A DNA stretch of 64,000 nt, taken from the IMG/VR virus record IMGVR_UViG_3300037234_000719, positions 1 to 64,000 of that record; one strand, written 5' to 3'. The notes below the pieces were generated by a model, which searched no databases, was not told the DNA's origin, and was given only the letters and a program-made list of their open reading frames with translations. A program made the position numbers and the translations under genes. Shown piece by piece: positions 4,263 to 54,886 of this stretch; the stretch's first letter is position 1, and each line of letters starts with the position of its first letter. Origin of the DNA: a virus.

Positions 4263-4825
4263 TGAGTGATGCTAGTGATAAACTAAGAGAAATGATTGGT
4301 GATGCTGAAACTGAATCAGAGAATTTACAAAGTAGCATATCACAAATTGATGATATTAAAGAGGATGTAACAGAACAAATTTCAGCAATTGAAGATGGTA
4401 TGTGTACAGTTGCTGCAGATGATTTAACTACATATTTAACAGATGTTAAACTTCCAGAATTTCAGGTAATTCAACCTACTGCTATTTTAAGTTTTGGTGG
4501 AGATTATGGAAGTATTGATTATGATGATGGAAATATAACAGATTGGGAAATATATTATATGACTATTGTTATACCACCAGCAGTTTCAGTAAAAGTTGTA
4601 TTATATGAATATGAAGGAACTGGTTGGGATAATGATGAAGAAATTATTAAATGGGTTGAAGATTATGATTTTGGAAATGATTATTTAACAAGACCTTTAG
4701 ACTCTGGTGCAACATATGGTTTGATTCCATATAAAGAAAATTTAGATTCAGCTCTTGATATTTTAAATAATAATAAAGATAAGGTTGATGATTCAGTAGC
4801 AGCTTTAGGAGATTATGCAACATAA
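4262..4825 (+). CDS. Unknown acidic protein of the tail/baseplate cluster
   Basis: A 187-residue, strongly acidic protein. Its first 45 residues are a likely coiled coil ('LREMIGDAETESENLQSSIS'), followed by a beta-rich middle with many Asp, Tyr and Gly residues and a short helical C-terminus. No family is recognised. It is coupled to the preceding gene by a one-base overlap. A structural role is inferred from position only. Confidence 0.55.
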   Translation: MSDASDKLREMIGDAETESENLQSSISQIDDIKEDVTEQISAIEDGMCTVAADDLTTYLTDVKLPEFQVIQPTAILSFGGDYGSIDYDDGNITDWEIYYMTIVIPPAVSVKVVLYEYEGTGWDNDEEIIKWVEDYDFGNDYLTRPLDSGATYGLIPYKENLDSALDILNNNKDKVDDSVAALGDYAT

Positions 4826-4843
4826 ATATTGGAGTTAAAATAA

Positions 4844-5299
4844 ATGAAAAAATATATTTTTTTAATTTTATTACTAATTATAAGTTGGAGTTGTTGGGCA
4901 TGGGCAGAAAGTAAATTATATGTATTTGGAGATGCAGCAGTTCTATCTGGATTTTATGTAATCAATAAAGCAACTGGAGAAAGAATAGGTTATATTGCTG
5001 TAGGAACGAGTGGTGAATTTGAGATGACAATTGAACTAGAATTAGTTCCAGTTTATATTGCAGATGGTGATAAACCTCCGCCTGATCCTACATGGATTCC
5101 TAATAAGGAAAATGCTTTTCAAACTAGTTGCAATACTTGTCATAGTCAGGAAACAGAAGATAAATTTGAGTTTGAAAAATGGAAAACAAAACTTGTAGAT
5201 TGGACTAATGATCTTAATGCACCAAATGATGATGGTCATAAAAAGCATATGAAGATAGAGAAACCAGTTGTTTGCACTGCATGCCATAGAAGAATTTAA
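4844..5299 (+). CDS. Secreted di-heme c-type cytochrome-like protein
   Basis: A 151-residue protein. Residues 1-22 are a clear signal peptide (MKK, a hydrophobic run, then 'SWSCWAWA'), probably cut after AWA. The mature part begins with a small beta-rich domain (about 25-85). The C-terminal half holds two perfect heme-attachment motifs, CNTCH and CTACH, plus extra histidines in 'DGHKKHMK' that could be axial ligands. CXXCH proteins are matured in the periplasm by the host cytochrome c machinery. The gene has its own ribosome binding site and sits between tail genes and the PAAR/M15 gene. A cytochrome encoded inside a phage tail operon is very unusual; its function is unknown. Confidence 0.8.
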   Translation: MKKYIFLILLLIISWSCWAWAESKLYVFGDAAVLSGFYVINKATGERIGYIAVGTSGEFEMTIELELVPVYIADGDKPPPDPTWIPNKENAFQTSCNTCHSQETEDKFEFEKWKTKLVDWTNDLNAPNDDGHKKHMKIEKPVVCTACHRRI

Positions 5300-6912: not shown

Positions 6913-6939
6913 CTCTATATATATTAATAACTAATAGAG
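6913..6939 (+). promoter_or_regulatory. Candidate phage promoter, TATATATATTAATAA motif, copy 1
   Basis: The stretch CTCTATATATATTAATAACT lies 17 bases after the amidase stop. The same core occurs at 8177-8201 and 18314-18340. Upstream of it, TAATTCATTTT is also shared with the 18296-18340 copy. All three copies lie in long intergenic gaps ahead of a transcription unit or RNA region, which fits a promoter for a phage polymerase. Confidence 0.6.
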
Positions 6940-7167
6940 TGAAACTTCCCTAAAGTAATGAGCGATAGAATAAATAATGATATCTTGACTGGATGTTATT
7001 TTAACTTCTGTCCCTCAAATTCACTCTGTCTTGTGCAGATCAAGTCCTGCTCGGAAAGGCCTCCGGGATCGGAAAGAGGACGTATATGGTGAAAGCAGTA
7101 GTTACTCATTTCTGTCTCCGCATAGGTGAGAGAACATCCTGCTTAATCGTCCCACTTGTTCTGCACA
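6936..7167 (+). ncRNA. Structured non-coding RNA candidate
   Basis: This gap of more than 300 bases contains no convincing ORF and is visibly more GC-rich than neighbouring genes. Two long-range helices are exact: AGAGTGAA (6936-6943) pairs with TTCACTCT (7020-7027), and TGTGCAGA (7032-7039) pairs with TCTGCACA (7160-7167). The second continues after one T-T mismatch with CAAGT/ACTTG (7041-7045 region and 7154-7158). Shorter inner helices include GTCCT/AGGAC, CTGCT/AGCAG and CTCAT/GTGAG. A promoter-like motif begins 23 bases before it. I compared it with RNase P RNA, tmRNA, SRP and 6S signatures and found no match, so its class is unknown. The 87 bases from 7168 to 7254 show nothing clear beyond a ribosome binding site. 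Confidence 0.6.
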
Positions 7168-7254
7168 TTTCTTAATGGAAGTAATTTAAGATAAAAGGAA
7201 CAAATACATAATGAGGTATATTAATTTTTTTCTAAACTTTGAAAGGATATGAAA

Positions 7255-9866: not shown

Positions 9867-10316
9867 ATGTCAACAAAAACAATTCAAGAACGATTTCAAA
9901 CATTAAATGAATTAATAAGAACAGTAGCAACAAATCTCGAACCACATGATACAATCAAAGCTCTTCAACAAAAACAATTGAGAGATAGATTAAGAGGAAA
10001 ATATCCAAAGTGTTTTCTTTCTATTAAAGCAATGGGTGGACAAGATCCGGATTTTTTTCCAGTCTGTAATACAGCAGGAATGATAGATGTTAGAGCAATA
10101 GAGATATCTCTAAAAGCAGTTTCAAGATTGATGAACGATACCAGTGGAGCATATGATACTAATGATCTATCCATGATGTTAGCAAAACTTCAAAGGATGA
10201 AAGATGTCTATTCTAAGACTATTCCAAAACCACCCAATCAAGCAGGAAGAAAAGCAGTAGTCACCAGAATGATGAATAATGTTAAAGATCATTTAAAAGT
10301 AACTAGGACTGACTAA
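9867..10316 (+). CDS. Unknown small protein preceding RNA polymerase 1 beta'
   Basis: A 149-residue basic, helical protein without recognised motifs. It has a good ribosome binding site (CTGGAGG). Its stop overlaps the beta'-like start (TAATG), so it is co-translated with the polymerase. An accessory role in polymerase assembly, or an unrelated structural role, is possible. Confidence 0.6.
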   Translation: MSTKTIQERFQTLNELIRTVATNLEPHDTIKALQQKQLRDRLRGKYPKCFLSIKAMGGQDPDFFPVCNTAGMIDVRAIEISLKAVSRLMNDTSGAYDTNDLSMMLAKLQRMKDVYSKTIPKPPNQAGRKAVVTRMMNNVKDHLKVTRTD

Positions 10317-13300
10317 TGAAAATAAAATTTCTTGATGTTGATAGATTTGTGAGAGGATTAGATCCTGTTACAACTGCTGAATTTAGAACTAGATCTGGAG
10401 AGTTTCATCCAGATGGTTTATTTAGTGAAAAAATATTTGGTGTTGAAAATTCTAGGGATCGAACCCAGACCTACTCATATATAAATCTTAGTACTACAGT
10501 TATACATCCTGCTGCATTTATTATCTTTAAAAGAATTGATAAAAAACTAATTAATTTTTTTTCAACTGAAAAACTTTTTACAATTCAAGATAATGGATTA
10601 TATTTTGAAACTGAAAAAGGGGTAACAGGAATCAAGGAATTTATTAAAGCATTTCCAAAGTTAGAATTTAAAGCTGGAACACCTGCAAGAGAAGGATTAA
10701 TTGAAGTTTTGAAAGAGAATTATAAGAATGGTACATTATTCATTGATAAAATTCCGGTTATACCTCCTGAACTTAGACCAGCATATATGGATGAAAAGGG
10801 TCAATGGATTATTGATGAGCTCAATCCCGTTTATATTGGTCTTTTAAGAAGAGCAACTCAAATAAAAGGTATTGGTAAATCAGGTGCATTGTTTGATCTG
10901 TTAAATTATAACTTACAATTAGCTGTTAATTCACATGATAAATATATTCGAACAAAGATCTCTAAAAAACATGGACTCATTAGAGATAAAATGATGGGAA
11001 AAAGAGTTGATTTTTCAGCAAGAGCTGTTATTATTCCTGGACCAAAACTAAAAATTAATGATGTGGGATTACCTTTAAGAATAGGAATTCTTTTATTTCA
11101 ACCTTTTATTATACACCATATGCTTTATTCTCAAAGATATCCAAGATATGCTGAATTAGAAAGTGAAATTAAAAATTATACTGATTCTGAATTATCAGTC
11201 GATACAATAAAAAGAGTAATGAAAGGAATCAAGGATGATGATAAAATTCCTGTGTCCTTATATGAGCTATTTTTTGAAGTATGTGAAATCGTGATGAAAG
11301 ATAGGGTTGTTATATTAAAACGCGACCCTGCACTACATGACGGTTCATATAGAGCATTTAACCCTATATTAACAAGAGGTAGTGAAATAGAATTATCAAC
11401 AATGCAAGTTGCTTCTTTTAATGCAGATTTTGATGGAGATCAAATGGCAGTTTATCATCCTCTTTCAGATCAAGCTCAACAAGAAGCTAAAGAAAAAATG
11501 ATGAGAGGAGTTGGAAGTAAAAGTTCAAATTCTATTATGTATGAGATTTCAAAAGAAATGAGTTTGGGTATTTACTTAATGACCAAAGCAACTAAATTAA
11601 AAAGTTCTCCAATAGCAGTAACAATGGATGATTTGAAAAAAGCAAATAATCCATACATCCCTGTTAGATTTAGAGGTCATAATACAACAATGGGAAGAGC
11701 TATTTTAAATTCTTCATTTCCTTCTGACTTTAAATGGATTGATGGACAAGTTACAAAAAGTGATGTTAATAAATTAATTCCTGAAGTTATTGATAAATAT
11801 GGGGATGAAGCTTCAGCTAATATTTTTACAAGTGTTAAGGATGCAGCATTTAAATTTGCAACGATTGGAGCATCTTCATTAACTTTAGATATATTAGATA
11901 TACCTGATAATATATTAAGATTGAAAGAAAAACTTGTAGGGTCATCTCCAGAAGAAGCTGATAAATTATTGAAAGAGATGGAAGTATTATTAAAGAAACA
12001 TTTAAAAGATACTGGTCTATACGATTTGATTGAATCTGGTTCTGCAAAAGGTTGGAGTCAACCAATGCAGATTCTTGTTGCTAAAGGTATTATTGCTGAT
12101 ACAAGTGGTAAATTGCTCGAACCTATTAAAGGATCATTTTCAGAAGGGTTAACAAATATAGAATATTTTAATGCAGCAGGTGGTGCTAGAAAAGGAATGG
12201 CAGATCGAGCTTTGAATACTGCTACAACTGGATATTTTACAAGACAACTTGTCTATGTATTATCTCCAGTAGAAGCACATCCTACACTAAAAGATTGTAA
12301 AACAAAACGAACTATTCAAATAAGATTAAATAATGATCTTATTAAAAGGATGTCAGGTCGATATATTATTAAAAGTGGTAAAATAGTTTTATTTAAAAAA
12401 TCAGATTATAAACCAGGGGATGTTGTTAACTTAAGAACATCTATTTATTGTGAGTCTTATAAATTATGTCATACCTGTTATGGGGATTTATTGAAACGTC
12501 ATAAATCTCCTTATGTTGGAGTTCTAGCAGGAGCATCAATTGGAGAACGTGGAACTCAATTAATTATGAGAACATTTCATACTGGTGGTGCTGCTAGTAT
12601 AGTTATTCGTGATGTTTTAGCAGATATTATTGATAATGATCCAATGATTGAAGTAGGTAAAACAAAGTTAGGCGAATATTTACAACAGGAAGATGATAAA
12701 TTAATAGCTAAAAAAGAATGTAATATAAAAATTGATCTGTCAACATATGAAGTAGAAAAATCTTATTTAATTGAAGAAGATAATGTTTGGTTTAATCACC
12801 TTGTTTCGCAAGTAGAATTTAATGATATAATTTTTAATATGGCACTTGATTATCCAGTTCATTTATTAAAACAGAATTTTAAAAAGGTAGGAAAAGAATC
12901 ACTAATATTTAAGTATTCAATTGGAGATACGATATTAGAAATTCCTTTACAAACAACAGAGATTAAAGAGCAGGTGAATTATGTTAATAGATTAATTGGA
13001 GGTCGAGTAGTTTATAAGGATCCTTCTCATTTGTTAACAAAAGTTATGAAAGTGTATGGCGGAAGTATATCTGATTTAGACTTATGCTATTTTGAAGTCC
13101 TATGTTCACAAGTTTTAAGAGATAGAAAGAATCAAGTATTACCTGCAAGACTTGGAAAGACTTGGGATCCTGTAATGATGAACATTAAAAGCACAGTTTT
13201 TAGTACAAGTTTTATTCAGAGTTTAGCATTTGAAAACATCAATAAAGCTATTGAAACTGGATTGATTTCTAAACAAGATGTGCCTGCAACAATATTAGAG

Positions 13301-13333
13301 AAATTAGTGACAGGAGAGGATTTAAGGAAATAA
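10316..13333 (+). CDS. Multisubunit RNA polymerase beta'-like subunit, polymerase 1
   Basis: A 1005-residue protein in one uninterrupted gene. It has the double-psi-barrel segment 'GKRVDFSARAVIIPGP' and the catalytic NADFDGD at 369-375, whose three Asp residues bind the catalytic magnesium. Further on come a 'CESYKLCHTCYGD' cysteine cluster and the conserved 'GASIGERGTQLIMRTFHTGG' near the trigger-loop region. The N-terminal zinc-binding domain of bacterial beta' is missing: the protein starts close to the 'HPDGLFSEKIFG' segment and then lacks the Cys ligands that polymerase 2 retains. It precedes its beta partner, the reverse of bacterial rpoB-rpoC order. It is not split, unlike the known phiKZ- and PBS1-type enzymes. 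Confidence 0.93.
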   Translation: MKIKFLDVDRFVRGLDPVTTAEFRTRSGEFHPDGLFSEKIFGVENSRDRTQTYSYINLSTTVIHPAAFIIFKRIDKKLINFFSTEKLFTIQDNGLYFETEKGVTGIKEFIKAFPKLEFKAGTPAREGLIEVLKENYKNGTLFIDKIPVIPPELRPAYMDEKGQWIIDELNPVYIGLLRRATQIKGIGKSGALFDLLNYNLQLAVNSHDKYIRTKISKKHGLIRDKMMGKRVDFSARAVIIPGPKLKINDVGLPLRIGILLFQPFIIHHMLYSQRYPRYAELESEIKNYTDSELSVDTIKRVMKGIKDDDKIPVSLYELFFEVCEIVMKDRVVILKRDPALHDGSYRAFNPILTRGSEIELSTMQVASFNADFDGDQMAVYHPLSDQAQQEAKEKMMRGVGSKSSNSIMYEISKEMSLGIYLMTKATKLKSSPIAVTMDDLKKANNPYIPVRFRGHNTTMGRAILNSSFPSDFKWIDGQVTKSDVNKLIPEVIDKYGDEASANIFTSVKDAAFKFATIGASSLTLDILDIPDNILRLKEKLVGSSPEEADKLLKEMEVLLKKHLKDTGLYDLIESGSAKGWSQPMQILVAKGIIADTSGKLLEPIKGSFSEGLTNIEYFNAAGGARKGMADRALNTATTGYFTRQLVYVLSPVEAHPTLKDCKTKRTIQIRLNNDLIKRMSGRYIIKSGKIVLFKKSDYKPGDVVNLRTSIYCESYKLCHTCYGDLLKRHKSPYVGVLAGASIGERGTQLIMRTFHTGGAASIVIRDVLADIIDNDPMIEVGKTKLGEYLQQEDDKLIAKKECNIKIDLSTYEVEKSYLIEEDNVWFNHLVSQVEFNDIIFNMALDYPVHLLKQNFKKVGKESLIFKYSIGDTILEIPLQTTEIKEQVNYVNRLIGGRVVYKDPSHLLTKVMKVYGGSISDLDLCYFEVLCSQVLRDRKNQVLPARLGKTWDPVMMNIKSTVFSTSFIQSLAFENINKAIETGLISKQDVPATILEKLVTGEDLRK

Positions 13334-13365
13334 CAGTCTGTGGAAGTATTTGGAGATAAACTCAT

Positions 13366-16300
13366 ATGATTAAATTTCAATCTTTAGTTCAATATTCAAG
13401 AGTAGTTGATGGAGTTCGTTTCTTTTCAGATAAGGATAGACCGTTCGTATTATTTTATTTCTCCGAGAATTCAACTCTATATGAAGATTATCCTAAAATG
13501 AATTTAAGAAGAATAGATGCAAGATATATAGTTGTTCCAATAACCCAGATACCTGTCTCTAGATTAACGGGCGATCAAAGAAAAGTTTATAAATCTTTTG
13601 GTTTACTTCCATTTCAATCAAATCAAGTATATCCCTTAAATGCAAATATTATATTCGATACCAGTAAATATGTTTCCTTGATAGATAAGATGTATAAACC
13701 AACAACATATAGACAAAGAGCAGGTTTTCTTCTAAATAATTTTCTTTATAAATCATTTAATTCGTTTCCTGATAACTATGAAAAAGTTCTAATTTATACT
13801 GTTGATGTTAATAAACCAATCAATTCGTTTATAAATCGAAAGATTTTTCCTATATTAAGAACTATGAAAGGAGATGAAATTTCATTTGATCATATGCTTA
13901 TGGCATTGATTGGAGAGTCGTCAACTAGATATAGACTATTAGTTAAAGACAGAAACTATAAATTTGCAAGAGTTTCTCAATATATAAGAAAAGTTAAAAT
14001 GATTAGTTCAGATGATGAGAAAGAACAAGAAGTTAAAACAGCAACGAACTCATTTGATGAGAAAGATTCTAAAGTTAAAACAGCAATTCAAAACTATTTA
14101 AATAAAAATGCTAAAGATCTTGAGAAAGTTTCTAATAATGAACTTGATAAAACAGAAAGAGATAGATTAACAATAGCTTCTATCTTATATAAATTAACAG
14201 GAGATTTTCAAAAGTCTCAAAGACTTGCAAAAGCTATTCCTAAAAAAAGTATTAAAACTGCAACTGAAAAGATAAGTCGTTTATATAAAGATGACTTATT
14301 AACAGGTGAAAAAGCTGTTAGTCTTAGTGAATCATATATTGTTCAGGGAATAAATGTTTCCAGGGTAGTTCAAAATAAAACACCAGAGCATATATTTGAC
14401 AAAAGAAGAATTGACTTTCAAACAAATTTAAAAAAGGATATGTCAAATGCTTTTAAAGTTTTAGAAAAAGGAAACGTTCCTATTAAATTTAATTCATTTA
14501 AAATTACTCATAAAAAAGGAAGAGCTGGAGAACTTAAAAAATCAGATGTTTCAATTATAACTGTAAGTATAACAGATGCAGCAGGAAAGAATCAAACATT
14601 TGAGTTTGAAATTCCACAGATTGATCCTGACTCTGGAACATTTAGAGTTAATGGTCAGCGCAAATGTTTAATTAATCAAATAGTGTTGACTCCAATAAGT
14701 TTTCCTAAACCTTATGATTCCAAATTTGAGAGTTCATATGCAAGATTCCATATCTATAGTAAGAAGACAAAGAGATTGTCGTATCTAGAAGCATACATGG
14801 GTTCCTTCCGCCTACCCTTGATGATACTGTTATCATATTGTTTTGGATTTGAAAAAACAGTTAAAAAATTAGGATTACAATATGAAATTGTAAAAGATAA
14901 ACCTAATAAGGATGTAGTCTTTACAGAAGTTCCTTCTTCATATATGGTATTTAAAAATTTAGATACTGATTTAAAAAAGGAAATGGTAACATCATTCACG
15001 CACGCTAAAATTAATCAATACAACATTAAAAAAGATTTTTTATCAAAAGATTATTTTGTAGAGTTGATTATACAAATGACTGGACGTGTCGATTCAACAT
15101 ATCTGATAAATAATAATATTGATTATATCGTTGATCCAGTTGCAAAACAAATTTTAGTTAATCAATTATTACCATATAAATTAGAAGATATTATGCATTA
15201 TATGGCAACTAAATCTGTTGATGGTTATGTTCAAGAAAGAAATGATATTAAATATCAAAGAATTAGAAATTCAGAAATTTTAGTTCATTTAGCACAAAAA
15301 CAATTTCTTAGTTCTTATACTGAATATAAAGAACAGTTTTTATCAGGAAATAAAGATGCTAAATTTAATTTTCCTCCAGGAGTTATATTAAGTCAATTTA
15401 CTAACTTAGAGATAGTTCAAAATATGGAGTATGCAAATCCAGTTGAAGAGATGGCAACAATTACAAAGATTTCTCCAGTTGGAAAAACAGTTGGAGGTAT
15501 TCCAGATAAGGAAGGATTAAATCTTCAAGCTCGAAATGTTCATAGATCATATTTTGGAAATATTGATCCGGTGGATACAGCAGAAGGTGGTAACATTGGG
15601 GTAACCCAACAGTTGACAGTGGACGCATATTTAACATCCTCCCGTGGATTGTTTGGAATTAAAGATTTAAAAAATGATGAAGGAGCTGGAATATTATCTA
15701 CAACACTTTCAATGGTTCCATTTATTGAAAACAATGAAGGTGCAAGAATGATAATGGCAGGTAATCAAGGAAAACAAATGTTACCTTTAAAAAATCCAGA
15801 ACCTCCTATAGTTCAAACAGGATATGAGTCATTACTTTCAAATGTTTTGTCTAATAATTTTATCAAGAGATCACCTTGTGCTGGAAAAGTGACAAAAATT
15901 ACTGGAGATTTTATTGAAATAGCTTGTAATAAAGGTTCTAAAAAGAAAGTTGTTATCACACCAGTTCAATTAAAATCAGGAGCTGGAAAAAATACATTGA
16001 GCACATTTAAACCATCTGTTGAGGTTGGACAATCAGTTAAAAATAAGCAAGTAATTGCAGAGGGAAGTTGTATTTCTGGCGGAACTATTTCATTAGGAAG
16101 AAATCTTGCTACTTGTTATATGCCTTATCAAGGATATAATTTTGAAGATGGTCTTGTAATAAATGAACGATTAGTATCTGATGATAAATTAACTTCTTTA
16201 CATGGAATTGATGTTGAGGCAACAGTTGATCGTAAAGATAGAATTTTACATATTATTGATATTGGAGCTAAAACTAAAAAGGGTGACCCTCTAATAAGAA

Positions 16301-17430
16301 AGACAGCAGGTGAAATTGAAGAACTATTAGGATTTCAAGAAGAAGAGGAAGAAGGAGTTGATGTATATGAGGGTCAAATAATTACAAAAAGTCCAGGTGG
16401 TCATGTTGTTGATATTGACGTATTTTCTAATATTGATATAGATTCTTTTCCTTCCATTAAAAAGTTAGTTGAAAGAACTAATAAAAAATATAAAAAACCT
16501 ACTAAAGAAAAATTTACAACTAGAGGGGTTTCAATTAAAGGGATATTAATTATATTTAGAATTGAACAAGAGTTAAAAATTGGAGTGGGAGATAAACTCT
16601 GTAACCGATATGGAAATAAAGGTATTATATCTTTAGTTCAAAAAGATGAATTAATGCCAAGAACACCTTGGGGTGAAACAGTTGATATTATTATGAATCC
16701 TCTTGGAGTTACTGGTCGAATGAATATAGGTCAAATATATGAATTGTATTGTGGTCTTATCTCTAAAGAAGTAGCAAATAGAATGGTTAAATTGAGCAAA
16801 GCTCAAGGCATTGCATTGATGAAAGCTGTAATAACAAGACTTGATAATACAAAAAATAAAAAAATTAGTACATCATTGATTGCTACAATGACTGCAATGA
16901 GCGATGTAAAATATAAAAAGATGTTAGAGCAAATTCAAAAAGATAAGTTTATACCAATAGTTATTCCTCCATTTCAATCTCCTAAACATAAAAGTATTTT
17001 AGAAGTATTAAAATTATTAAAATTAAAAACAGGATATAAATTAAAACTTCCAGAGTATAATACAAAAACTCAAAATGCGGTTCCATTTGGATATGAATAT
17101 GTTTCTAAATTAGAACATATTTCAGATGCTAAATTACATGCTAGATCAACTGGTCCAACAACTGGAAAAGTTGGTCAACCAACTGCTGGTAAAAGAAAAG
17201 AGGGTGGGCAAAGAATAGGAGAAGGAGATACATGGGCATTAACAAGTTATAATTGTCCTACAATATTATCTGAACTCTTTGGACCTATGTCTGATGACTT
17301 TGTATCTAAAAATGAAATGATGTCAGAAATTATACAAAATGGAAGAACAGATTTTAAAGAAACAAAAATGTCTCCAACTAGAGATTTATTAAAAGCATAT
17401 TTTATTTCTTTAATGCTAGGAGGTCAATAA
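13366..17430 (+). CDS. Multisubunit RNA polymerase beta-like subunit, polymerase 1
   Basis: A 1354-residue, unsplit beta homologue. Landmarks in order: 'GNIDPVDTAEGGNIGVTQQL' (bacterial 'PVDTPEG' region), 'YMPYQGYNFEDGLVINERL', 'GDKLCNRYGNKGIISLV' near residue 1075, 'NPLGVTGRMNIGQIYE', and the C-terminal 'HARSTGPTTGKVGQPTAGK' followed by 'GGQRIGEGDTWAL'. Together with the beta'-like protein it would form the active-site cleft. The N-terminal half holds a charged insertion (about residues 215-290) rich in Lys, Glu and Asp that I cannot assign. No alpha, omega or sigma homologue was recognised in the window. Confidence 0.93.
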   Translation: MIKFQSLVQYSRVVDGVRFFSDKDRPFVLFYFSENSTLYEDYPKMNLRRIDARYIVVPITQIPVSRLTGDQRKVYKSFGLLPFQSNQVYPLNANIIFDTSKYVSLIDKMYKPTTYRQRAGFLLNNFLYKSFNSFPDNYEKVLIYTVDVNKPINSFINRKIFPILRTMKGDEISFDHMLMALIGESSTRYRLLVKDRNYKFARVSQYIRKVKMISSDDEKEQEVKTATNSFDEKDSKVKTAIQNYLNKNAKDLEKVSNNELDKTERDRLTIASILYKLTGDFQKSQRLAKAIPKKSIKTATEKISRLYKDDLLTGEKAVSLSESYIVQGINVSRVVQNKTPEHIFDKRRIDFQTNLKKDMSNAFKVLEKGNVPIKFNSFKITHKKGRAGELKKSDVSIITVSITDAAGKNQTFEFEIPQIDPDSGTFRVNGQRKCLINQIVLTPISFPKPYDSKFESSYARFHIYSKKTKRLSYLEAYMGSFRLPLMILLSYCFGFEKTVKKLGLQYEIVKDKPNKDVVFTEVPSSYMVFKNLDTDLKKEMVTSFTHAKINQYNIKKDFLSKDYFVELIIQMTGRVDSTYLINNNIDYIVDPVAKQILVNQLLPYKLEDIMHYMATKSVDGYVQERNDIKYQRIRNSEILVHLAQKQFLSSYTEYKEQFLSGNKDAKFNFPPGVILSQFTNLEIVQNMEYANPVEEMATITKISPVGKTVGGIPDKEGLNLQARNVHRSYFGNIDPVDTAEGGNIGVTQQLTVDAYLTSSRGLFGIKDLKNDEGAGILSTTLSMVPFIENNEGARMIMAGNQGKQMLPLKNPEPPIVQTGYESLLSNVLSNNFIKRSPCAGKVTKITGDFIEIACNKGSKKKVVITPVQLKSGAGKNTLSTFKPSVEVGQSVKNKQVIAEGSCISGGTISLGRNLATCYMPYQGYNFEDGLVINERLVSDDKLTSLHGIDVEATVDRKDRILHIIDIGAKTKKGDPLIRKTAGEIEELLGFQEEEEEGVDVYEGQIITKSPGGHVVDIDVFSNIDIDSFPSIKKLVERTNKKYKKPTKEKFTTRGVSIKGILIIFRIEQELKIGVGDKLCNRYGNKGIISLVQKDELMPRTPWGETVDIIMNPLGVTGRMNIGQIYELYCGLISKEVANRMVKLSKAQGIALMKAVITRLDNTKNKKISTSLIATMTAMSDVKYKKMLEQIQKDKFIPIVIPPFQSPKHKSILEVLKLLKLKTGYKLKLPEYNTKTQNAVPFGYEYVSKLEHISDAKLHARSTGPTTGKVGQPTAGKRKEGGQRIGEGDTWALTSYNCPTILSELFGPMSDDFVSKNEMMSEIIQNGRTDFKETKMSPTRDLLKAYFISLMLGGQ

Positions 17431-18296: not shown

Positions 18297-18340
18297 TTCA
18301 TTTTAAAAAATACATCTATATATATTAATAACTGATAAAG
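18296..18340 (+). promoter_or_regulatory. Candidate phage promoter, TATATATATTAATAA motif, copy 3, ahead of the RNA array
   Basis: ATCTATATATATTAATAACT (18314-18333) is preceded by TAATTCATTTT, both shared with copy 1 at 6913-6939; across about 50 bases the two copies differ at only a handful of positions. The first structured RNA begins 23 bases after the motif, a plausible promoter-to-transcript distance. Confidence 0.65.
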
Positions 18341-18362: not shown

Positions 18363-18469
18363 TTCTAAGAAGACTTTATGTGATTCCAGAGCTGTGTTGG
18401 TACAGCATCATACTATAAATGTGAAGTCAGGGTTCGAGTCCCTCATATTACATTTCTTACTTCTTAGAA
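18363..18469 (+). ncRNA. Y-RNA-like element A with tRNA-mimic arms
   Basis: The outer stem TTCTAAGAAG (18363-18372) pairs with CTTCTTAGAA (18460-18469). Inside lie the shared core strands ACTTTATGTGATTCCAGA and ATTACAT, forming a second stem. The apical part mimics a tRNA: D-like arm GCTG/CAGC with loop TGTTGGTA, a 5-bp anticodon-like stem TCATA/TGTGA with 7-base loop CTATAAA, a 4-base variable loop, and a T-like arm AGGG-TTCGAGT-CCCT. There is no CCA end and the acceptor-like stem is offset, so I read it as a tRNA mimic as in bacterial YrlA, not a tRNA. Confidence 0.7.
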
Positions 18470-18482
18470 TTTTTATTTTTTA

Positions 18483-18588
18483 TCTGGAAAGACTTTATGT
18501 GATTTCCGAGCTGTGTTGGTACAGCATCTTACTATTAATAAGAAGCAAGGGTTCAACTCCCTGTAACTTACATCTGCTACTTTCCAGA
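18483..18588 (+). ncRNA. Y-RNA-like element B with tRNA-mimic arms
   Basis: The outer stem TCTGGAAAG (18483-18491) pairs with CTTTCCAGA (18580-18588); it differs from element A in sequence yet keeps pairing. The core GACTTTATGTGATTTCCGA and TTACAT is retained. The tRNA-like part has the identical D-like arm, a perfect anticodon-like stem TCTTA/TAAGA with loop CTATTAA, and T-like arm AGGG-TTCAACT-CCCT. Covariation between A and B in the anticodon-like stem supports a conserved fold. Confidence 0.7.
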
Positions 18589-18600
18589 CCTATCAAAATT

Positions 18601-18664
18601 TTCTAAGAAGACTTTGTGTAATTCCAGATCGATGCATCCAAATTACACCTATTACTTCTTAGAA
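18601..18664 (+). ncRNA. Y-RNA-like element C, minimal
   Basis: The outer stem TTCTAAGAAG (18601-18610) pairs with CTTCTTAGAA (18655-18664), and an inner 8-bp stem GTGTAATT (18616-18623) pairs with AATTACAC (18641-18648). The core CCAGA is kept. The apical loop is short and holds the palindrome GATGCATC in place of tRNA-like arms. Confidence 0.65.
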
Positions 18665-18675
18665 ACACAACTTTC

Positions 18676-18775
18676 AGATGAGAAGACTATATGTGGTTTC
18701 AGAATACAGAAGCAAGTGTTTAATACACACTTAGTCCTTGTAATACCTTTGTCCTACATAAACTACTTCTCATCT
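18676..18775 (+). ncRNA. Y-RNA-like element D
   Basis: The outer stem AGATGAGAAG (18676-18685) pairs with CTTCTCATCT (18766-18775). The inner stem ATGTGG pairs with CCTACAT using one G-U pair, and the core TTTCAGA is conserved. The apical region carries its own hairpin, AAGTGT/ACACTT, and lacks a T-loop sequence. Both outer stem strands differ from A-C but remain complementary. Confidence 0.65.
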
Positions 18776-18783
18776 CATTTTTC

Positions 18784-18846
18784 CTGAAAGACTTTTTGTA
18801 ATTTCAGATTTATTGGAAAATCATCAATTACAATTACTACTTTCAG
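18784..18846 (+). ncRNA. Y-RNA-like element E, minimal
   Basis: The outer stem CTGAAAG (18784-18790) pairs with CTTTCAG (18840-18846). The inner stem TGTAATT pairs with AATTACA, followed by the core TTTCAGA. A small apical hairpin GATTT/AAATC is possible. Confidence 0.65.
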
Positions 18847-18855
18847 GTTTTACTT

Positions 18856-18922
18856 TGTGGGGTCACTCAGTATAGAAAAAAACCTATTCGGGGTTCTAAA
18901 CCTATACTAATAGTACCCCACA
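18856..18922 (+). ncRNA. Long hairpin between array elements E and F
   Basis: TGTGGGGT (18856-18863) pairs with ACCCCACA (18915-18922), and inside AGTATAG (18869-18875) pairs with CTATACT (18902-18908). It lacks the core shared by elements A-F and has no T-run. Its 67-base length and 8-bp closing stem recall a tRNA, but no T-arm could be drawn. It may be another processed RNA or a spacer structure. Confidence 0.45.
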
Positions 18923-18930
18923 TCTTTTCT

Positions 18931-18989
18931 AAATGGACTTAATGTGATTTCAGACCTGCATAGTGTTAAGATTACATTTACTTCCATTT
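18931..18989 (+). ncRNA. Y-RNA-like element F, minimal
   Basis: The outer stem AAATGGA (18931-18937) pairs with TCCATTT (18983-18989). The inner stem ATGTGAT pairs with ATTACAT, with the core TTTCAGA between. It is the last copy; TTTTTTT follows directly, which could end the array transcript. Confidence 0.6.
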
Positions 18990-19086
18990 TTTTGAAAGGA
19001 AATTGATGAAAGATTCTTTTATTCTAAAACATTGGTTATAATTGCTTTACGTCGTCAGAAACATTTAAAGGGAAAGGAGATCTAAA

Positions 19087-20598
19087 GTGCCAGGAGAGTT
19101 AGGATTAATTGATTCAGGTATATTGCAGTTTGCTCCAAAGGGAGCTTATTATGAAGGAAAAGATGAGCAATATAATGCCATCAATAGCATGTGGGAAAGT
19201 CTATTTAAATATGATAGAACTTTATTTTCTTTGCTAATGTTGTTAAATGGAACAGGTTTTGCAAAGGGATCAATGTCTCACATCTTATTATCGAATCCAT
19301 TAGAGGAATCCAAACTTCCAGTATTAGATAACCTACCTTCCCATTTTGAGAAGGATATTATAAACTATGCTCTTTATAAGGAGAGAACTCCAAGAGCATT
19401 GAAAAATTTATTAATGTTAACAGGAGCAGAAGGGCACAGTAAAGTTAATAATTCTAGAACAAGAAAAATGATTTTAGAATTTATATTCAATCGAGATAAT
19501 AATAATCTTGATAATCTTGCTGTGAATTATAAAGGCAAACTTCAAACGCTGATTACACATGCTCTTGGAAAACAAGATCTAGCAAAAATTCTTGGTGGTG
19601 ACAAAAAATCATTTGAAAAATTCATTGGAAAATATAATAGACATTCTTTTCCTGTAGTTCTTCATATATTCAATATGGATATTCCAACTGTGGGAGCTTA
19701 CTTTCCAATGATTGAAAAATATTATAAACTTCGAAACGCAGCACAAGAGAAAAATATTACAGAATTTAAAAAATTAATGAAGGGCATGCCAGAAAGAACA
19801 GTCATGGGTATGAGGAATTTATATAAAGTTAACATTCCTATATCTGAATTAAAAGATGAAACTACCAAATCACAAAAGGATAGAATTCAAGGACAGGCAG
19901 CAGCTAAAAGAGCTGGAACAAAGATAGATATTGATTATAAAAAACAAGATATCTATGACTTATTTAAATTTCTATATTTTAAAATCAAAAACAATGATGG
20001 TGAGGATTTTAATAAAATATTATATGCCATTGATCACGTTGCAGGCAAACTTCCTAAAATAGATATTGGAGAATGTGTAGTAGTTATGGATGCTTCACAT
20101 TCAATGATGGGAAGTGATGAAAGACCAATGCATCCATTTCTAACTGGACTATCTATTACTGCAACTCTCAAAAATATAAGAGAGTATATATATGTTGGAG
20201 GAGAAACAGCTAAAATGGAAGGTAATGATTTTCCAGAAATTGTAGTTCCTTGCAATAGTACAGATTTATGGAGAGGATTGATCAAAGCTGTTAAAACAGG
20301 TGTTGAAAATATAGTTATCATTTCAGATGGTTATGAAAACACCATCAAAGGAATGTTCAAACACGTATATGATCACTTAAAAAAGAATGGATATAAGTTC
20401 AAAGTAACTCATATCAATCCTGTATTTTCAGCTTCATCTGTTAATGGTTCAACAAGAAAATTAGCAGATGATATTAAATCTATGCCAGTAGGAAACTATA
20501 AGTATTTAGAAACAGAAGTTATTTTTTCTAGACTTGTAGAGGATAAGGAAATGGTTAAAAAAATATTAATCTCAAAATATAGAAATTTACTTCAATAA
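19087..20598 (+). CDS. Ro60/TROVE-like RNA-binding protein (helical repeats plus vWA domain)
   Basis: A 503-residue protein with a GTG start supported by AAAGGAG just upstream. Residues about 60-290 are helical repeat-like, with 'NNSRTRKMILEFIFNR' resembling TROVE/HEAT repeats. The C-terminal third is a von Willebrand A domain: 'VVVMDASHSMMGS' gives the MIDAS Asp335-x-Ser337-x-Ser339, followed by 'IVIISDGYEN'. Ro60/Rsr proteins have this architecture and bind Y RNAs at the ring of helical repeats. The gene lies immediately downstream of six Y-RNA-like elements, which strongly supports the reading. Some hallmark TROVE segments are not obvious, so a different HEAT-vWA family cannot be excluded. 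Confidence 0.65.
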   Translation: MPGELGLIDSGILQFAPKGAYYEGKDEQYNAINSMWESLFKYDRTLFSLLMLLNGTGFAKGSMSHILLSNPLEESKLPVLDNLPSHFEKDIINYALYKERTPRALKNLLMLTGAEGHSKVNNSRTRKMILEFIFNRDNNNLDNLAVNYKGKLQTLITHALGKQDLAKILGGDKKSFEKFIGKYNRHSFPVVLHIFNMDIPTVGAYFPMIEKYYKLRNAAQEKNITEFKKLMKGMPERTVMGMRNLYKVNIPISELKDETTKSQKDRIQGQAAAKRAGTKIDIDYKKQDIYDLFKFLYFKIKNNDGEDFNKILYAIDHVAGKLPKIDIGECVVVMDASHSMMGSDERPMHPFLTGLSITATLKNIREYIYVGGETAKMEGNDFPEIVVPCNSTDLWRGLIKAVKTGVENIVIISDGYENTIKGMFKHVYDHLKKNGYKFKVTHINPVFSASSVNGSTRKLADDIKSMPVGNYKYLETEVIFSRLVEDKEMVKKILISKYRNLLQ

Positions 20599-20615: not shown

Positions 20616-21587
20616 ATGTCAATATTGAAAACATTAGGATTTACAAATCTTAATGCTGGAACCGTTCAAGTTGTGGATGAAATGACAGTAGTGCCCTTAA
20701 TTAGTGAAGATTTAGGACAAGTTGCTGAACCATTTTCATTGAAATTCAGACGAACAAACACTTATGGTTCCATGATTTATGAGAATTTAGATAAGGAATC
20801 TCCTGCGATCATTCCCAATAATATTATGGTGAGAGGATTGAGTGCACAGGATCACGCAATGGCAGGATCAGGAGTGGTTAAAGCTGAAAAATCAAAAACA
20901 TTCAATAATGCTTGCTGTATTGAATCAAGTCAAGGTGGATATCTAGGTGAAGAAAATAATGAATATGATATCTTGCCTGTTCAGCTTCGTAAGAAACTTA
21001 TTCCATTAGATATAAGAAATAAAAAAAGTTATGATAAATTATGGCCAGAAATTACAGCATGGTTGAAAGGTACTATTGATGTATCTCCTCGTTTCTCAAG
21101 TGCCCATCTAAGATATTTCTATGATGATCCTGAAATAAAGAAATCTCTTGAAACATTCTCCGCTGAATTTGAACCTGTATTAAATCAAATCGGTGCTATT
21201 ATATTATTTACAGATAACATTGTTGGTATAGAAGTTATGCCAACTCTTTCACATTGGTATTATTACTGGAAATTATTAATTCGTGGATGTTATGGAGCTG
21301 AATTATTAAGACGTAAAAAATTAAATATAATTAAACCAGCTAAATTGAAACTTCCAAAACTTCCAAAAGATATTGATCAGATATCTTTAGTTGGCGATAC
21401 TTATACAGATGGTATTCGTCAAAACATTATTAAAAAATTAGACACTATTAATTTGAAAACAACTTCAACTATTATAGAAAAAGTTGAAGATATTAATATT
21501 ATATTATTAAACAGTGAATCAGGTGGTAGCGGTGGAGATTTGATTACTCAAAAAGATAAACCAATATATCTTTCTATAGTGATGTAA
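20616..21587 (+). CDS. Unknown protein coupled to the Ro60-like gene
   Basis: A 323-residue protein following the Ro60-like gene by 17 bases with a strong GGGAGG site. The N-terminal half ('MTVVPLIS', 'GLSAQDHAMAGSG', 'NNACCIESSQGGYL') looks like a conserved enzymatic or binding core and faintly recalls the ARPP-1 family, from memory only. The C-terminus contains a Ser/Gly-rich loop ('ESGGSGGD'). Co-transcription with the Ro60-like gene suggests a linked role, for example in RNA handling, but no catalytic residue can be named. Confidence 0.6.
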   Translation: MSILKTLGFTNLNAGTVQVVDEMTVVPLISEDLGQVAEPFSLKFRRTNTYGSMIYENLDKESPAIIPNNIMVRGLSAQDHAMAGSGVVKAEKSKTFNNACCIESSQGGYLGEENNEYDILPVQLRKKLIPLDIRNKKSYDKLWPEITAWLKGTIDVSPRFSSAHLRYFYDDPEIKKSLETFSAEFEPVLNQIGAIILFTDNIVGIEVMPTLSHWYYYWKLLIRGCYGAELLRRKKLNIIKPAKLKLPKLPKDIDQISLVGDTYTDGIRQNIIKKLDTINLKTTSTIIEKVEDINIILLNSESGGSGGDLITQKDKPIYLSIVM

Positions 21588-39014: not shown

Positions 39015-40037
39015 ATGATAAGACTAGTAAATTGGCTGCTCACTCGTAGATGTAATCTCAAATGTGAGTATTGCTCAATTACAAAAAATTATTCTGACAT
39101 ACCAAAAGAATATCCCAATATGGATCATTATATAAAAAATGAAATGACCACAGAGTATGTTTTAAAAGGATTGGAAAGACTTAATAAACATAATCCAGAT
39201 TGTTTTCATATCTTTTATGGAGGTGAACCACTTTTAAGAAAAGATTTATCACAAATTATTAATTACTGTAATGAAAATGATATTCACTACACAATAATAT
39301 CAAACAATACAGATCAGATTCGTCCACTAATTGATAAATTATTTGAAGAAGTTGATTATATTCAAGGATTTACTGCATCTGTTGATCCATCCTTTAATGA
39401 GAAAAATACAGATGATAGAATAGTTAAAAGTGCAGCAGGATTTGTAAATCTATTAAGATTAAAAGATCGTGTTAAAGATCTTGTTGCTGAAATAACTGTT
39501 ATGAAACATAATGTAAAATATTTATATGAACTTGTTGGGGCATTAACAGTAAGTGGTATAAGTAGTGATATAACATTTATTGATATAGCAAAAAGTCCAT
39601 ATTATGATTTCTCGAATATGAGTGATAAAAATTTATTAGTTGAACAGAGTGATGAAGTATCTAAAATATTTCAACGATTGATTAATAGTGATTTTGATAT
39701 TCATATGAAAAATGTTCTACTTCCAATGATTTATAAAATACTTCCATCGAATTTAGATTGTGAATTAGAAAAAGGAGTTCATAATATTACCGTTGATGCA
39801 GATGGAACTATTAGATTATGTTTGAGAATAAGAGGTACTCATGCTCCAAAGTTAGTTAAGATACCAAATTTGATTAATGATAATGATAAGGTATCATTTA
39901 TTGCTGAAAAGGCAATTGCAAAAGATAAAGAGATTTATTGTTTGGGATGTAATCATACATGCTTATTAATGAGTATGTATATTGATAAAACAGATCGAGG
40001 AAGTGAGGATTTAATTCACGTCAATAGGAGGGAATAA
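39015..40037 (+). CDS. Radical SAM enzyme with a C-terminal cysteine-rich (SPASM-like) region
   Basis: A 340-residue protein. 'LLTRRCNLKCEYCSITKN' holds the CxxxCxxC that binds the SAM-cleaving 4Fe-4S cluster, and 'IFYGGEPLLRKD' is the GGE motif. The C-terminus has additional cysteines ('CELEKG', 'RLCLRIRG', 'YCLGCNHTC') that could hold auxiliary clusters, as in SPASM peptide-modifying enzymes. It is too long and differently built for a standard QueE. It lies between SbcC and the ubiquitin-like operon. The substrate is unknown. Confidence 0.8.
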   Translation: MIRLVNWLLTRRCNLKCEYCSITKNYSDIPKEYPNMDHYIKNEMTTEYVLKGLERLNKHNPDCFHIFYGGEPLLRKDLSQIINYCNENDIHYTIISNNTDQIRPLIDKLFEEVDYIQGFTASVDPSFNEKNTDDRIVKSAAGFVNLLRLKDRVKDLVAEITVMKHNVKYLYELVGALTVSGISSDITFIDIAKSPYYDFSNMSDKNLLVEQSDEVSKIFQRLINSDFDIHMKNVLLPMIYKILPSNLDCELEKGVHNITVDADGTIRLCLRIRGTHAPKLVKIPNLINDNDKVSFIAEKAIAKDKEIYCLGCNHTCLLMSMYIDKTDRGSEDLIHVNRRE

Positions 40038-47849: not shown

Positions 47850-48030
47850 AGAATTTATAAATCAACATGAATCACAAATTACAAAAAAAGATGCACAAAT
47901 TATCATTAAATCTTTAATGCCATTTATTGATGAAATGGTATCAGAAAAAGTAAAATATCATTTTAAATTATTAGCAAATCATTTACTAGATACATTAAAA
48001 TCTACAGAGGAGAAATTAAAAGATGCCTAG
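47806..48030 (+). CDS. Small helical protein preceding RNA polymerase 2
   Basis: About 74 residues starting at ATG 47806 behind AAAGGGAG; the longer frame from 47776 lacks a site. It is helical and charged ('LKIEEFINQHESQITKKDA'). It overlaps the preceding gene by 44 bases and the polymerase 2 beta' start by 8. No family is recognised. Confidence 0.6.
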   Translation: MEKHPLDEYIQLKIEEFINQHESQITKKDAQIIIKSLMPFIDEMVSEKVKYHFKLLANHLLDTLKSTEEKLKDA

Positions 48031-50707: not shown

Positions 50708-50925
50708 AAGAACTAGAGCAAGAATTGCTTGACCGTTATGCAGACTACAGAGATCCAGATTCTAACTGGATAAAAACAAATCTACCAGATGAGTTAAATG
50801 ATACTGGAGCAAAAGATTTTATAATAAAACCTCATGATGCAAAATCAGTTAGTCAGGTTAATTCATTTACAATATATTATGAGGTTAAAGGAAAAAGAAT
50901 TGTTAAATTTGTAAGGAGAATATAA
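50704..50925 (+). CDS. Small protein 1 of a paralogous pair between polymerase 2 subunits
   Basis: A 73-residue protein overlapping the beta' stop (ATGA). 'IKPHDAKSVSQVNSFTIYYE' aligns with 'IEPDDAKSIDEIKQFKIIE' of the next protein. The pair arose by duplication. No known family. Confidence 0.6.
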   Translation: MKELEQELLDRYADYRDPDSNWIKTNLPDELNDTGAKDFIIKPHDAKSVSQVNSFTIYYEVKGKRIVKFVRRI

Positions 50926-51152
50926 TGAAAGAATTAAATAATCAAGAATTAAGAGATGAAATAATTGAACTTTTCCTTAGTGATTCAATAGATAATTGGA
51001 CCAAAAGTCCATCAGTTTATGATCTATCTAATTGTGGTCAATTAGATATTGAAATAGAACCAGACGATGCAAAAAGTATTGATGAAATAAAACAGTTTAA
51101 AATAATAGAAACTGTAATGGGATCAGAAACACTAGAATTTACAAGGAAATAA
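50925..51152 (+). CDS. Small protein 2 of a paralogous pair between polymerase 2 subunits
   Basis: A 75-residue acidic protein paralogous to the preceding one and overlapping it by one base. No motif is recognised. Its location inside the polymerase 2 operon is the only hint of function. Confidence 0.6.
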   Translation: MKELNNQELRDEIIELFLSDSIDNWTKSPSVYDLSNCGQLDIEIEPDDAKSIDEIKQFKIIETVMGSETLEFTRK

Positions 51153-51154
51153 TA

Positions 51155-51334
51155 ATGAGAGATCCGAATAGAATACATGAGATGTTAAGAGTAATATCGA
51201 AGGTCTGGTATAAACATCCAGACCTTCGATTAGGTCAATTAATATTAAATGCAGTTACAATTAATCCAAATCTGTATTATATGGAAGATGAACAGCTATT
51301 AGAATATTTAAAAAAGACTTATAAGGAGGAGTAG
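51155..51334 (+). CDS. Small DUF1040-like protein, 59 residues
   Basis: It starts 'MRDPNRIHEMLRVISKVW' and continues 'HPDLRLGQLILNAV' and 'YYMEDEQLLEYLKK'. This pattern is that of a widespread small helical family (DUF1040-like, from memory) found in bacteria and phages, of unknown function. It begins two bases after the preceding stop, and its 3' end contains the AAGGAGGAG that serves the polymerase 2 beta gene. Confidence 0.7.
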   Translation: MRDPNRIHEMLRVISKVWYKHPDLRLGQLILNAVTINPNLYYMEDEQLLEYLKKTYKEE

Positions 51335-51337
51335 AAT

Positions 51338-54300: not shown

Positions 54301-54367
54301 ATCAGTTAAATTATTAAATTCATATTTAACAGTATTAGGGGTAGATTATCATGGCAGTTCAAAATGA
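51338..54367 (+). CDS. Multisubunit RNA polymerase beta-like subunit, polymerase 2
   Basis: A 1009-residue, unsplit beta homologue with a TTG start behind AAGGAGGAG. Landmarks: 'RICPVDTPDRDNCGVLQNL', 'YYGWNYEDGIIISDKL', 'GDKIANRHGNKGVISKIL' near residue 729, 'NPLGIISRMNIGQLFE', and the C-terminal 'LQPLGGRKNKGGQRCGEME'. It is some 345 residues shorter than polymerase 1 beta and lacks the charged N-terminal insertion. It pairs with the beta' at 48023-50707. Confidence 0.93.
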   Translation: MKLKNPVFKIQSEDNNIFTIRKKDQELILPVTKVILQPAIDLGFTLNELTLKESRFSSGELSKTVKQNLTIKLQKGTSNIDLSLHIPKLIDDNYIIINGRRKIPLFQLFDIPIVTRGENIKLRTNVATLTILKDREQPFVKVSFLGKKVPLSILMFAYYGIEGMINNKELDLPNVKIQDLDDNILMDLLIKECKLIYDELQSNTTQDDFILEIGRAYSKYNSKSKGHDIIYALDLIPQVDIFTKTFLTTGSLLGELIYTIKTGDVSDILFTNKRVRCFEYMIFSRISKIIFDLCFSNRTAKQPKFNTNTTQILSECNVSDIVQFDFSINPIEELTKLSRISLLGPGGFKRENIPKHLRDICPTMFGRICPVDTPDRDNCGVLQNLIPNVKLDQHLRFTNEICEKQPISIPVSLTPFCEHDDQTRLQMASSQMRQSIMLKEFDQPMIKSGCEGLYTDYTQFIKRAKKNGEVTHLDEKYLMVVYDDKTIDIFDVEYRNIYVEHMDIMKLYVNVGDKFKAGDILAESNFVQDGEINFGRNLLTGVMIYYGWNYEDGIIISDKLIQNDAFTSVHFKDLSFVIPPSKVLLSLSENEYRPLPKALEKIGQGDTYAILKTLSLDDFYSVFTESSKLVAEKSYIIPKIKIFANEWNTDIPEYKEWVEKTIETQQKKESIFRTIIKEKLPREQAIKFIRERDLELFSFVGKYKIKKEKINGIYVEISGIHFRSIKVGDKIANRHGNKGVISKILPQEMMPQLEDGRHLDVCINPLGIISRMNIGQLFELHLTMSLYDLQQNALQMLKKEKPQDQIKNYLTGYIQIVDKTKDSWYTKQFVEQLPDIIDIPFIKAFSLIQPPFESCHSEDLEKALKYTNTGFTYKLYDPIVRKNFLNQISVGYIYFLRMVHIAEEKLAARGIGSYAKRTLQPLGGRKNKGGQRCGEMETACIIGHDAPKNLFEFLTTKSDCIDLKNDYIRNYINTGRVVKTEDLDPMPESVKLLNSYLTVLGVDYHGSSK

Positions 54368-54728: not shown

Positions 54729-54886
54729 TTAGAGATGATGCTTGGAAAGGATCAGGTTTTGATGATTCAGAATTATTATTTGAATGTTCAAATGATAGAG
54801 AACATGAATTACATCGTTCTAAAAATGATGAATGGGAAAATACTATTAGAGAAGAGTTTTATAGAGGAGCATATTATGCCGACTAA
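54632..54886 (+). CDS. Small zinc-ribbon-like protein
   Basis: An 84-residue protein beginning 'MLETKYCPICKGEI', a CxxC knuckle, with a later 'CSNDREHELH' that could complete a zinc site. GGAGTGATTC lies at suitable distance. It overlaps both neighbours. Confidence 0.55.
   Translation: MLETKYCPICKGEIILRYHIPDKNFKISKGKMIRDDAWKGSGFDDSELLFECSNDREHELHRSKNDEWENTIREEFYRGAYYAD

Follow-up and report, generated by a model that had tools for sequence, protein, structure and literature searches.

A sequence-divergent Ro60-like protein with six upstream Y-RNA-like elements and an ARPP partner in a phage genome

Introduction

In the passages cited here, the closest described counterpart of the locus studied in this work, the Rsr/YrlA Ro ribonucleoprotein (RNP) of Deinococcus radiodurans and Salmonella, resembles it in its vWA ring protein, its adjacent end-paired RNAs and the tRNA-like apical domain of these RNAs. 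In the Rsr/YrlA/PNPase complex, those passages describe Rsr as bound by the basal stem and the effector as bound by the tRNA-like domain (PMC8394870, PMC4726728). We analysed a stretch of 64,000 nucleotides (nt), hereafter the window, which covers positions 1 to 64,000 of the IMG/VR virus record IMGVR_UViG_3300037234_000719 (full record, 73,492 bases). The locus in question comprises six Y-RNA-like elements (A to F), a Ro60-like gene and a gene of the ARPP family. A previous interpretation made from the letters alone (the sequence-only reading) had proposed that this phage has its own multi-RNA Ro RNP. The array and a Ro-like predicted fold were supported by our analysis, whereas membership of the TROVE family was not, and the usual third partner, ARPP, had been missed.

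Phages with their own Ro protein are already known: canonical Ro genes were found in 340 of 50,697 phage records, mostly from Mycobacterium and Streptomyces phages. The cited passages report that a small minority of jumbo phages have ROT/TROVE proteins (PMC7824862) and that a TROVE protein occurs in Borgs (PMC11208441). Listeria phage CKA15 has an Rsr-like protein and three highly transcribed nearby regions, possibly Y RNAs (PMC12282133), and a Ro60-related protein is encoded by Vibrio jumbo phage pir03 (PMC7765460); both proteins, like that of the window, were identified through remote or structural homology. The cited parts of these two accounts mention neither RNA structures nor an ARPP partner.

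The "Ro-like RNA binding protein" of the actinobacteriophages Cashline (Gordonia), ShiaLabeouf (Mycobacterium) and Sham (Streptomyces) is likewise phage-borne. Unlike the protein of the window, those of ShiaLabeouf and Sham have both the Pfam TROVE and vWA_Ro60 domains, and in all three phages no ARPP was found among + strand open reading frames (ORFs) of at least 90 amino acids (aa) within about 2.5 kb. The Ro gene of Sham sits among annotated tRNA genes. In Cashline (L175, 2180 to 2480), two tandem tRNA-like RNAs were recognised by eye just upstream of the canonical Ro gene, each beginning with GGGCCGGAGTTGATCGGTTACC (2180 and 2328) and not with the core found in the window.

The locus differs from Rsr/YrlA in having no TROVE profile match, up to six RNAs and an ARPP partner. 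It also differs in that Pfam scans of 24 window proteins and PHROGs scans of 7 more, 31 in all, detected no RNA ligase or cyclase. The ARPP-1/ARPP-2 proteins of ADP-ribose conflict systems, for which action on ribose moieties has been proposed, belong to the same domain family as the ARPP described here and its relatives; the neighbours named in the cited passages are ARG-centred systems, HIRAN, WYL and a deacetylase, with no Ro-like proteins or Y RNAs among them (PMC9503650). Our literature search, which covered few subscription journals and is weak evidence, found no account of this Ro-like family, its ARPP linkage or six-RNA arrays among the matches listed.

Six Y-RNA-like elements upstream of the Ro-like gene

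Six structured elements lie on the + strand between 18363 and 18989, at the positions given in the sequence-only reading. Each matched a shared core and folded better than the mean of its shuffled sequences (z −2.3 to −5.1).

18363 to 18469, + strand: element A, Y-RNA-like, with a 10-bp closing stem and a tRNA-like module (core match; fold z −3.0, folded to 18472)
18483 to 18588, + strand: element B, Y-RNA-like, with a tRNA-like module (core match; fold z −2.3)
18601 to 18664, + strand: element C, minimal Y-RNA-like stem with a small apical loop (core match; z −5.1; covariation)
18676 to 18775, + strand: element D, Y-RNA-like, with a long non-tRNA apical hairpin (core match; z −3.5)
18783 to 18847, + strand: element E, minimal Y-RNA-like stem with a short apical loop (core match; z −4.9; covariation)
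18931 to 18989, + strand: element F, minimal Y-RNA-like stem with a short apical loop, then a T run (core match; z −3.6; covariation)

The array ends 97 nt before the start codon of the Ro-like gene and begins about 720 nt upstream of the gene. Folding and covariation supported the proposed layout of a closing stem, a conserved internal loop with an upper stem, and a variable apical module. As in YrlA-type RNAs, the 5′ and 3′ ends are paired and a conserved helix adjoins an internal loop; the position beside a Ro60 gene is likewise shared, as far as the 503-aa protein counts as Ro60.

Two core strands had been described as common to all six elements. An IUPAC pattern of the 5′ core, built from these same six copies, matched six times in the window at up to two mismatches (0.10 expected), and this strand is specific to the array. 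The 3′ strand alone is weakly specific: it gave 30 matches at up to three mismatches against 17.6 expected, a number reached in none of 100 shuffles, and 24 of these 30 loose matches fall outside the array. The closing stems had been read as all different in sequence and still complementary. Pairing is indeed kept, but A and C have the same closing stem, and therefore not all six differ.

Covariation was evaluated in nine minimal elements from the window and three related viral contigs (L089, L090 and L091), using a structure written by hand. In this alignment 97.9% of the cells pair, and both sides have changed in 13 of the 18 pairs (31 cells). None of 500 shuffles matched the paired fraction or the covariation score, and 11 of 500 reached the number of pair types. 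When the alignment was slid out of register, pairing dropped to 40–47%. A swap test was performed on 25 elements (six from the window, four from L089, four from L090, five from L091, three from the viral contig L092 and three from the plasmid locus L005). The cognate combination paired 135 of 149 inner closing-stem positions, and the best of 20,000 within-array swaps paired 124. Element ends were picked with the stems in view, which favours cognate pairs; some ends are also imprecise (window A is 3 nt too long; L090-1 and L005-3 are affected as well), which lowers the cognate score. The covariation counts are the stronger test.

Other origins of the elements were ruled out: chance repeats by the core counts, the swap test and covariation; plain tRNA genes by ARAGORN, which finds none in the window; and mere tandem DNA repeats by the variation of the stems while pairing stays.

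The Ro60-like protein

The gene directly downstream encodes a protein with a helical part and a vWA domain carrying a metal-ion-dependent adhesion site (MIDAS), as had been noted from its sequence and as the predicted model and MIDAS conservation bear out.

19087 to 20598, + strand: Ro60-like protein of 503 aa, helical N-terminal part and C-terminal vWA domain with MIDAS (AlphaFold2, Foldseek, VIA-align)

The MIDAS residues D335, S337 and S339 are invariant in 60 sequences (the protein and 59 relatives), and T392 and D414 are at least 90% conserved. The AlphaFold2 model built from the relatives' alignment had a mean predicted local distance difference test (pLDDT) score of 90.4 and a predicted template modelling score (pTM) of 0.87. 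Foldseek matched it to four Protein Data Bank (PDB) chains at E ≤ 1e-3, all of them Ro60/TROVE (E 3.1e-6 to 4.3e-5; template modelling (TM) score 0.41–0.49). In VIA-align, D. radiodurans Rsr and a Thermus-phage Ro60 were among the ten best rows, each of which was a Ro60, Rsr or TROVE entry (Z 11.8–15.2 over 400–411 residues; root-mean-square deviation (rmsd) 5.5–5.9), and the next row was a vWA domain alone (Z 10.9). A library of viral models gave seven matches at E ≤ 1e-3, including a TROVE protein and a "Ro-like RNA binding protein". In the predicted model, these full-length Ro60/Rsr/TROVE matches point to a helical ring closed by the vWA domain.

Sequence comparison was less informative. 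As a single query, the 503-aa protein returned nothing useful from Pfam, PHROGs, NCBIfam or PDB sequences, and the 60-sequence profile matched no PDB chain. VWA_CoxE was matched weakly by 10 of the 60 members, and PADLOC gave three families, each weak and in one member only. For 19087 to 20598, a Ro60-like fold is predicted by structural comparison, whereas Pfam gave no TROVE match and the helical part showed no profile similarity to the five canonical TROVE proteins compared. We therefore call the protein Ro60-like by predicted structure and not a TROVE member by sequence.

The TROVE profile was absent from the full record of the window at E ≤ 1. Canonical TROVE occurred in 13 of 28 genomes carrying the Ro-like family (28 of the 80 genome loci described below), at the same locus in Minicystis rosea (L024), and in none of 21 viral records with the family (21 of the 78 viral loci).

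Relatives of the locus and the ARPP partner

The initial related-locus scan gave a sole match, a contig with an identical protein. With tblastn, relatives were found in a huge-phage record (LR756500, 28%), an Alkaliphilus plasmid (31%, E 2e-55) and three Nostoc plasmids (21–22%). Alignment-based scans yielded 94 genome loci, of which 80 were kept, and 78 viral loci. Together with other matches the total was 163 loci, in which the identical-protein contig is counted twice (L003 and L088); removal of near-duplicates at 90% identity left 123.

20616 to 21587, + strand: ARPP-1 domain protein of 323 aa (Pfam PF20208, 60.4 bits against a cut-off of 27, E 2.3e-16)

An ARPP homologue lies within about 1 kb downstream of the Ro-like gene in 154 of the 163 loci, or 115 of the 123 without near-duplicates. 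Nine loci lack it; in six of these the available sequence ends within 247 bases, and in the other three it continues for nearly 5 kb. The AlphaFold2 model of ARPP (pLDDT 93.1) matched no PDB entry at E ≤ 1e-3, and a second structural comparison gave none above Z 4.9, so no mechanism can be drawn from its fold.

Spread of the RNA elements

The pairing of such RNAs with the protein recurs in relatives from phages, a plasmid and bacteria, as motif and structure scans showed. Arrays of three to five elements precede the gene in four other viral contigs (L089 to L092) and in the Alkaliphilus plasmid locus L005. A strict upstream scan found 47 elements in 32 of 156 loci, against 2.0 in shuffled sequence, 2 antisense and 5 downstream; six of the 47 come from L088, the copy of the window's array. 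A structure scan at threshold 15 placed an element at most 700 nt upstream in 34 of 118 non-redundant loci (including L003), compared with 4.7 in shuffles and 7 antisense. At threshold 13 the count was 50 of 118, against 26.3 shuffled, 30 antisense and 25 beyond ARPP; as this is unspecific, only threshold 15 was used. In the initial motif scan, both strands together had 122 raw matches, some of them redundant or due to chance, and one-strand shuffles had 19.

A second core class, GGGACT...GACTTCCG, is a related bacterial element, of which 18 examples were aligned. It occurs within 400 nt upstream in 29 of 119 loci, none viral; the pattern was derived from these same loci and has 35 matches anywhere in them on both strands. 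One class or the other lies upstream in 57 of 118 loci.

tRNA-like modules and tRNA arrays

Chen and colleagues (2014), working on Y RNAs in bacteria and phages, reportedly found at least one RNA per species with a tRNA-like domain. Elements A and B have such modules, as the analogy with YrlA had suggested. Against the Rfam tRNA model, whose gathering threshold is 29 bits, A scored 29.0 bits (model positions 9–63), just at the threshold and unlisted in the whole-window run, and B scored 29.9 bits (positions 1–71), above the threshold and listed. The minimum-energy fold of A keeps the D- and T-arm hairpins and loses the anticodon arm, and that of B has three arms standing on the upper stem. C, D, E and F have no tRNA-like part by Rfam. 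YrlA is described in the cited passages with D, T and acceptor arms, whereas A and B keep the anticodon arm in the tRNA model alignment.

More complete domains were found when 13 loci were searched with Rfam: elements 1 and 2 of L092 contain tRNA domains of 69.5 and 53.9 bits, and element 4 of L090 contains one of 47.7 bits. In element 3 of L092 (4813 to 4960), the insert runs T arm, acceptor hairpin, D arm, anticodon arm, the order of a circularly permuted tRNA; T-arm, acceptor and anticodon hairpins were seen in its fold, and the D arm was poor. Permuted orders were also read by eye in element 1 of L089 and in L024.

At least five tRNA calls were made in 9 of 64 genome loci and 7 of 57 viral loci; no tRNA was called in the two plasmid loci. 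All 338 calls share the strand of the Ro-like gene, and some are modules inside elements. In the Minicystis rosea locus, a dense tRNA array (L024, 1622 to 4810) lies between the canonical TROVE gene and the Ro-like/ARPP pair; two of its tRNA matches span 122 and 124 nt, apparently with large inserts.

Discussion

We propose, with a probability of roughly 0.72, that the locus encodes a phage Ro-type RNP of a divergent lineage and that the six upstream RNAs are its cognate Y-like RNAs. Binding of the A to F RNAs to the Ro-like protein is highly probable. The odds of a function in Ro-type RNA surveillance, decay or repair are about even, and a specific role in defending tRNAs during infection is a tentative suggestion.

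In such an RNP, the protein would bind a module shared by all six RNAs and made up of the closing stem, the conserved internal loop and the upper stem of 7–8 bp, and the apical part would be an exchangeable effector module: tRNA-like in A and B, a hairpin in D, and almost nothing in C, E and F. From the analogy with Rsr/YrlA/PNPase, the shared core is expected to dock on the ring and the apical part to determine the client. The tRNA-like RNAs might link the ring with nucleases or with enzymes that handle tRNAs, or keep host toxins from cleaving tRNAs, and the minimal RNAs might occupy and gate the ring. ARPP, as the third component, would act either on the RNA or on nucleotides freed from it. 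This choice of clients, the ARPP activity and any role against tRNA-cleaving defences are inferred.

Several results weigh against the proposed Ro-type RNP. Neither Pfam TROVE nor vWA_Ro60 was matched by any of the 60 family members at E ≤ 0.1. In hhalign against five canonical TROVE proteins, the probability was 92.7 (P 4.3e-7) with mainly the vWA part aligned; by halves, against these five sequences only, it was 86.6 for the vWA part and 0.2 for the helical part (the unrelated ARPP, as a control, gave 0.1). TM scores of 0.41–0.49 and an rmsd above 5 Å leave room for a similar but independent helix-plus-vWA architecture in the predicted model. As for the RNAs, only tRNA reached the gathering threshold in the window and 13 loci, giving no match to a curated Y RNA in Rfam 15, where the presence of bacterial Y-RNA models is unconfirmed. 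By both scans, 61 of 118 loci have neither element class, and in the huge phage LR756500 (L093) no element was found by the scans or by reading the upstream stretch. The specificity of the threshold-15 scan is limited, since it also placed elements beyond ARPP in 12 of 118 loci. Sigma-70 promoters were not in excess (2 found, 4.2 expected), and no sense-strand terminator was predicted between the array and the gene.

The best-surviving alternative is that the RNAs mainly mimic tRNAs and absorb host anticodon nucleases or tRNA-targeting toxins, with the protein only stabilising them. The modules in A and B, the near-complete tRNA domains inside the L092 and L090 elements and the tRNA arrays around some relatives are consistent with it, and a competitive-inhibitor role has been raised for Salmonella YrlA in the cited passage (PMC7790460). 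However, Rfam finds a tRNA-like part in only two of the six RNAs, A and B, at no more than 29–30 bits, and we consider a decoy array unlikely. Less probable still is a regulatory leader, in which the elements would be structures in the 5′ untranslated region of the Ro-like mRNA, bound by the protein for self-control, and not separate RNAs. In many bacterial relatives a single element lies about 40–130 nt before the ORF start as set here, and the array and gene of the window are co-oriented without a predicted terminator between them. Against this, six copies with different apical modules, two of them tRNA-like, are more than a leader needs; the array begins far upstream of the gene; and in L091 a further promoter-like motif separates the first element from the second. 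Chance proximity of an unrelated phage RNA array to an unrelated helical-repeat and vWA protein (a chaperone- or MoxR-type co-factor) is very improbable, since, despite the missing TROVE profile match and the restriction of TROVE similarity to the vWA part, full-length Ro60/TROVE structural matches top both PDB lists and related RNA elements precede the gene in phages, a plasmid and bacteria.

If the locus does encode a Ro-type RNP, such complexes extend beyond the TROVE profile, and an unannotated family gains a likely identity and its usual partner. The six-RNA array would be a natural experiment on Y RNA roles, in which the needs of the ring, namely closing stem, internal loop and upper stem, are separable from the effector module. 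Given the tRNA-like modules and tRNA arrays, a role in protecting tRNAs could be tested directly, and an RNA context would be gained for ARPP, an enzyme-like family of no known activity. The apparent novelty lies in a Ro-like family that has diverged in sequence, is accompanied by ARPP and has an RNA core of its own, with arrays whose tRNA-like modules are interchangeable; the recurrence of these gene sets in phages and bacteria suggests an RNA-handling system wider than known. In a broader scenario, which is speculative and on balance doubtful, a second, sequence-divergent Ro RNP system of phages, plasmids and bacteria, tied to tRNA arrays, would consist of a Ro-like ring, Y-like RNAs and an ARPP enzyme of no recognised fold. 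The tRNA modules of its RNAs would be swappable and sometimes circularly permuted, and each RNA of an array would load the ring for a different client. In phages, the system would serve to guard tRNAs, repair them or shield them from tRNA-cleaving defences of the host.

Promoter-like motif and other features

Two further features belong to the array region.

18316 to 18331, + strand: promoter-like motif CTATATATATTAATAA, upstream of the array, with three exact copies in the window
18854 to 18923, + strand: extra hairpin without the core, between E and F (fold z −5.5)

By eye, a core-less hairpin stands at a similar place in L091 (about 4734 to 4812) and L090 (about 4795 to 4870). In the window, L090 and L091 this site is before the last element or the gene; the hairpin was folded for the window only.

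The three copies of CTATATATATTAATAA (6915, 8178 and 18316) are all on the + strand between ORFs, with 0.09 expected at up to one mismatch. A longer form precedes the array in L090 and occurs twice in L091. In L091, too, the motif precedes the array, and the further copy lies between the first two elements as mentioned above. The motif may be a promoter used by an RNA polymerase of the phage itself. Pieces of a multi-subunit RNA polymerase are encoded within 10316 to 17427 and 48023 to 54364, and the window also encodes topoisomerase/gyrase subunits and folE2. Such gene content is typical of large phages with their own multi-subunit polymerase. A blastn comparison with phages gave zero matches for the array and for two RNA polymerase genes, and flanking genes are common to the window and L089 to L091.

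In the Alkaliphilus plasmid pB6464, a TerD-family gene (L005, 3393 to 4160) immediately precedes the three-element array. Radical SAM and GTP cyclohydrolase FolE2 genes are located at 39015 to 40037 and 54735 to 55760 of the window; both occur in phage 7-deazaguanine DNA modification pathways. Just after the CTATATATATTAATAA copy at 6915 to 6930, a structured stretch of 250 nt (6935 to 7185, fold z −4.6) has no ORF of annotated size and no Rfam match at E ≤ 1, and is possibly another non-coding RNA of the phage.

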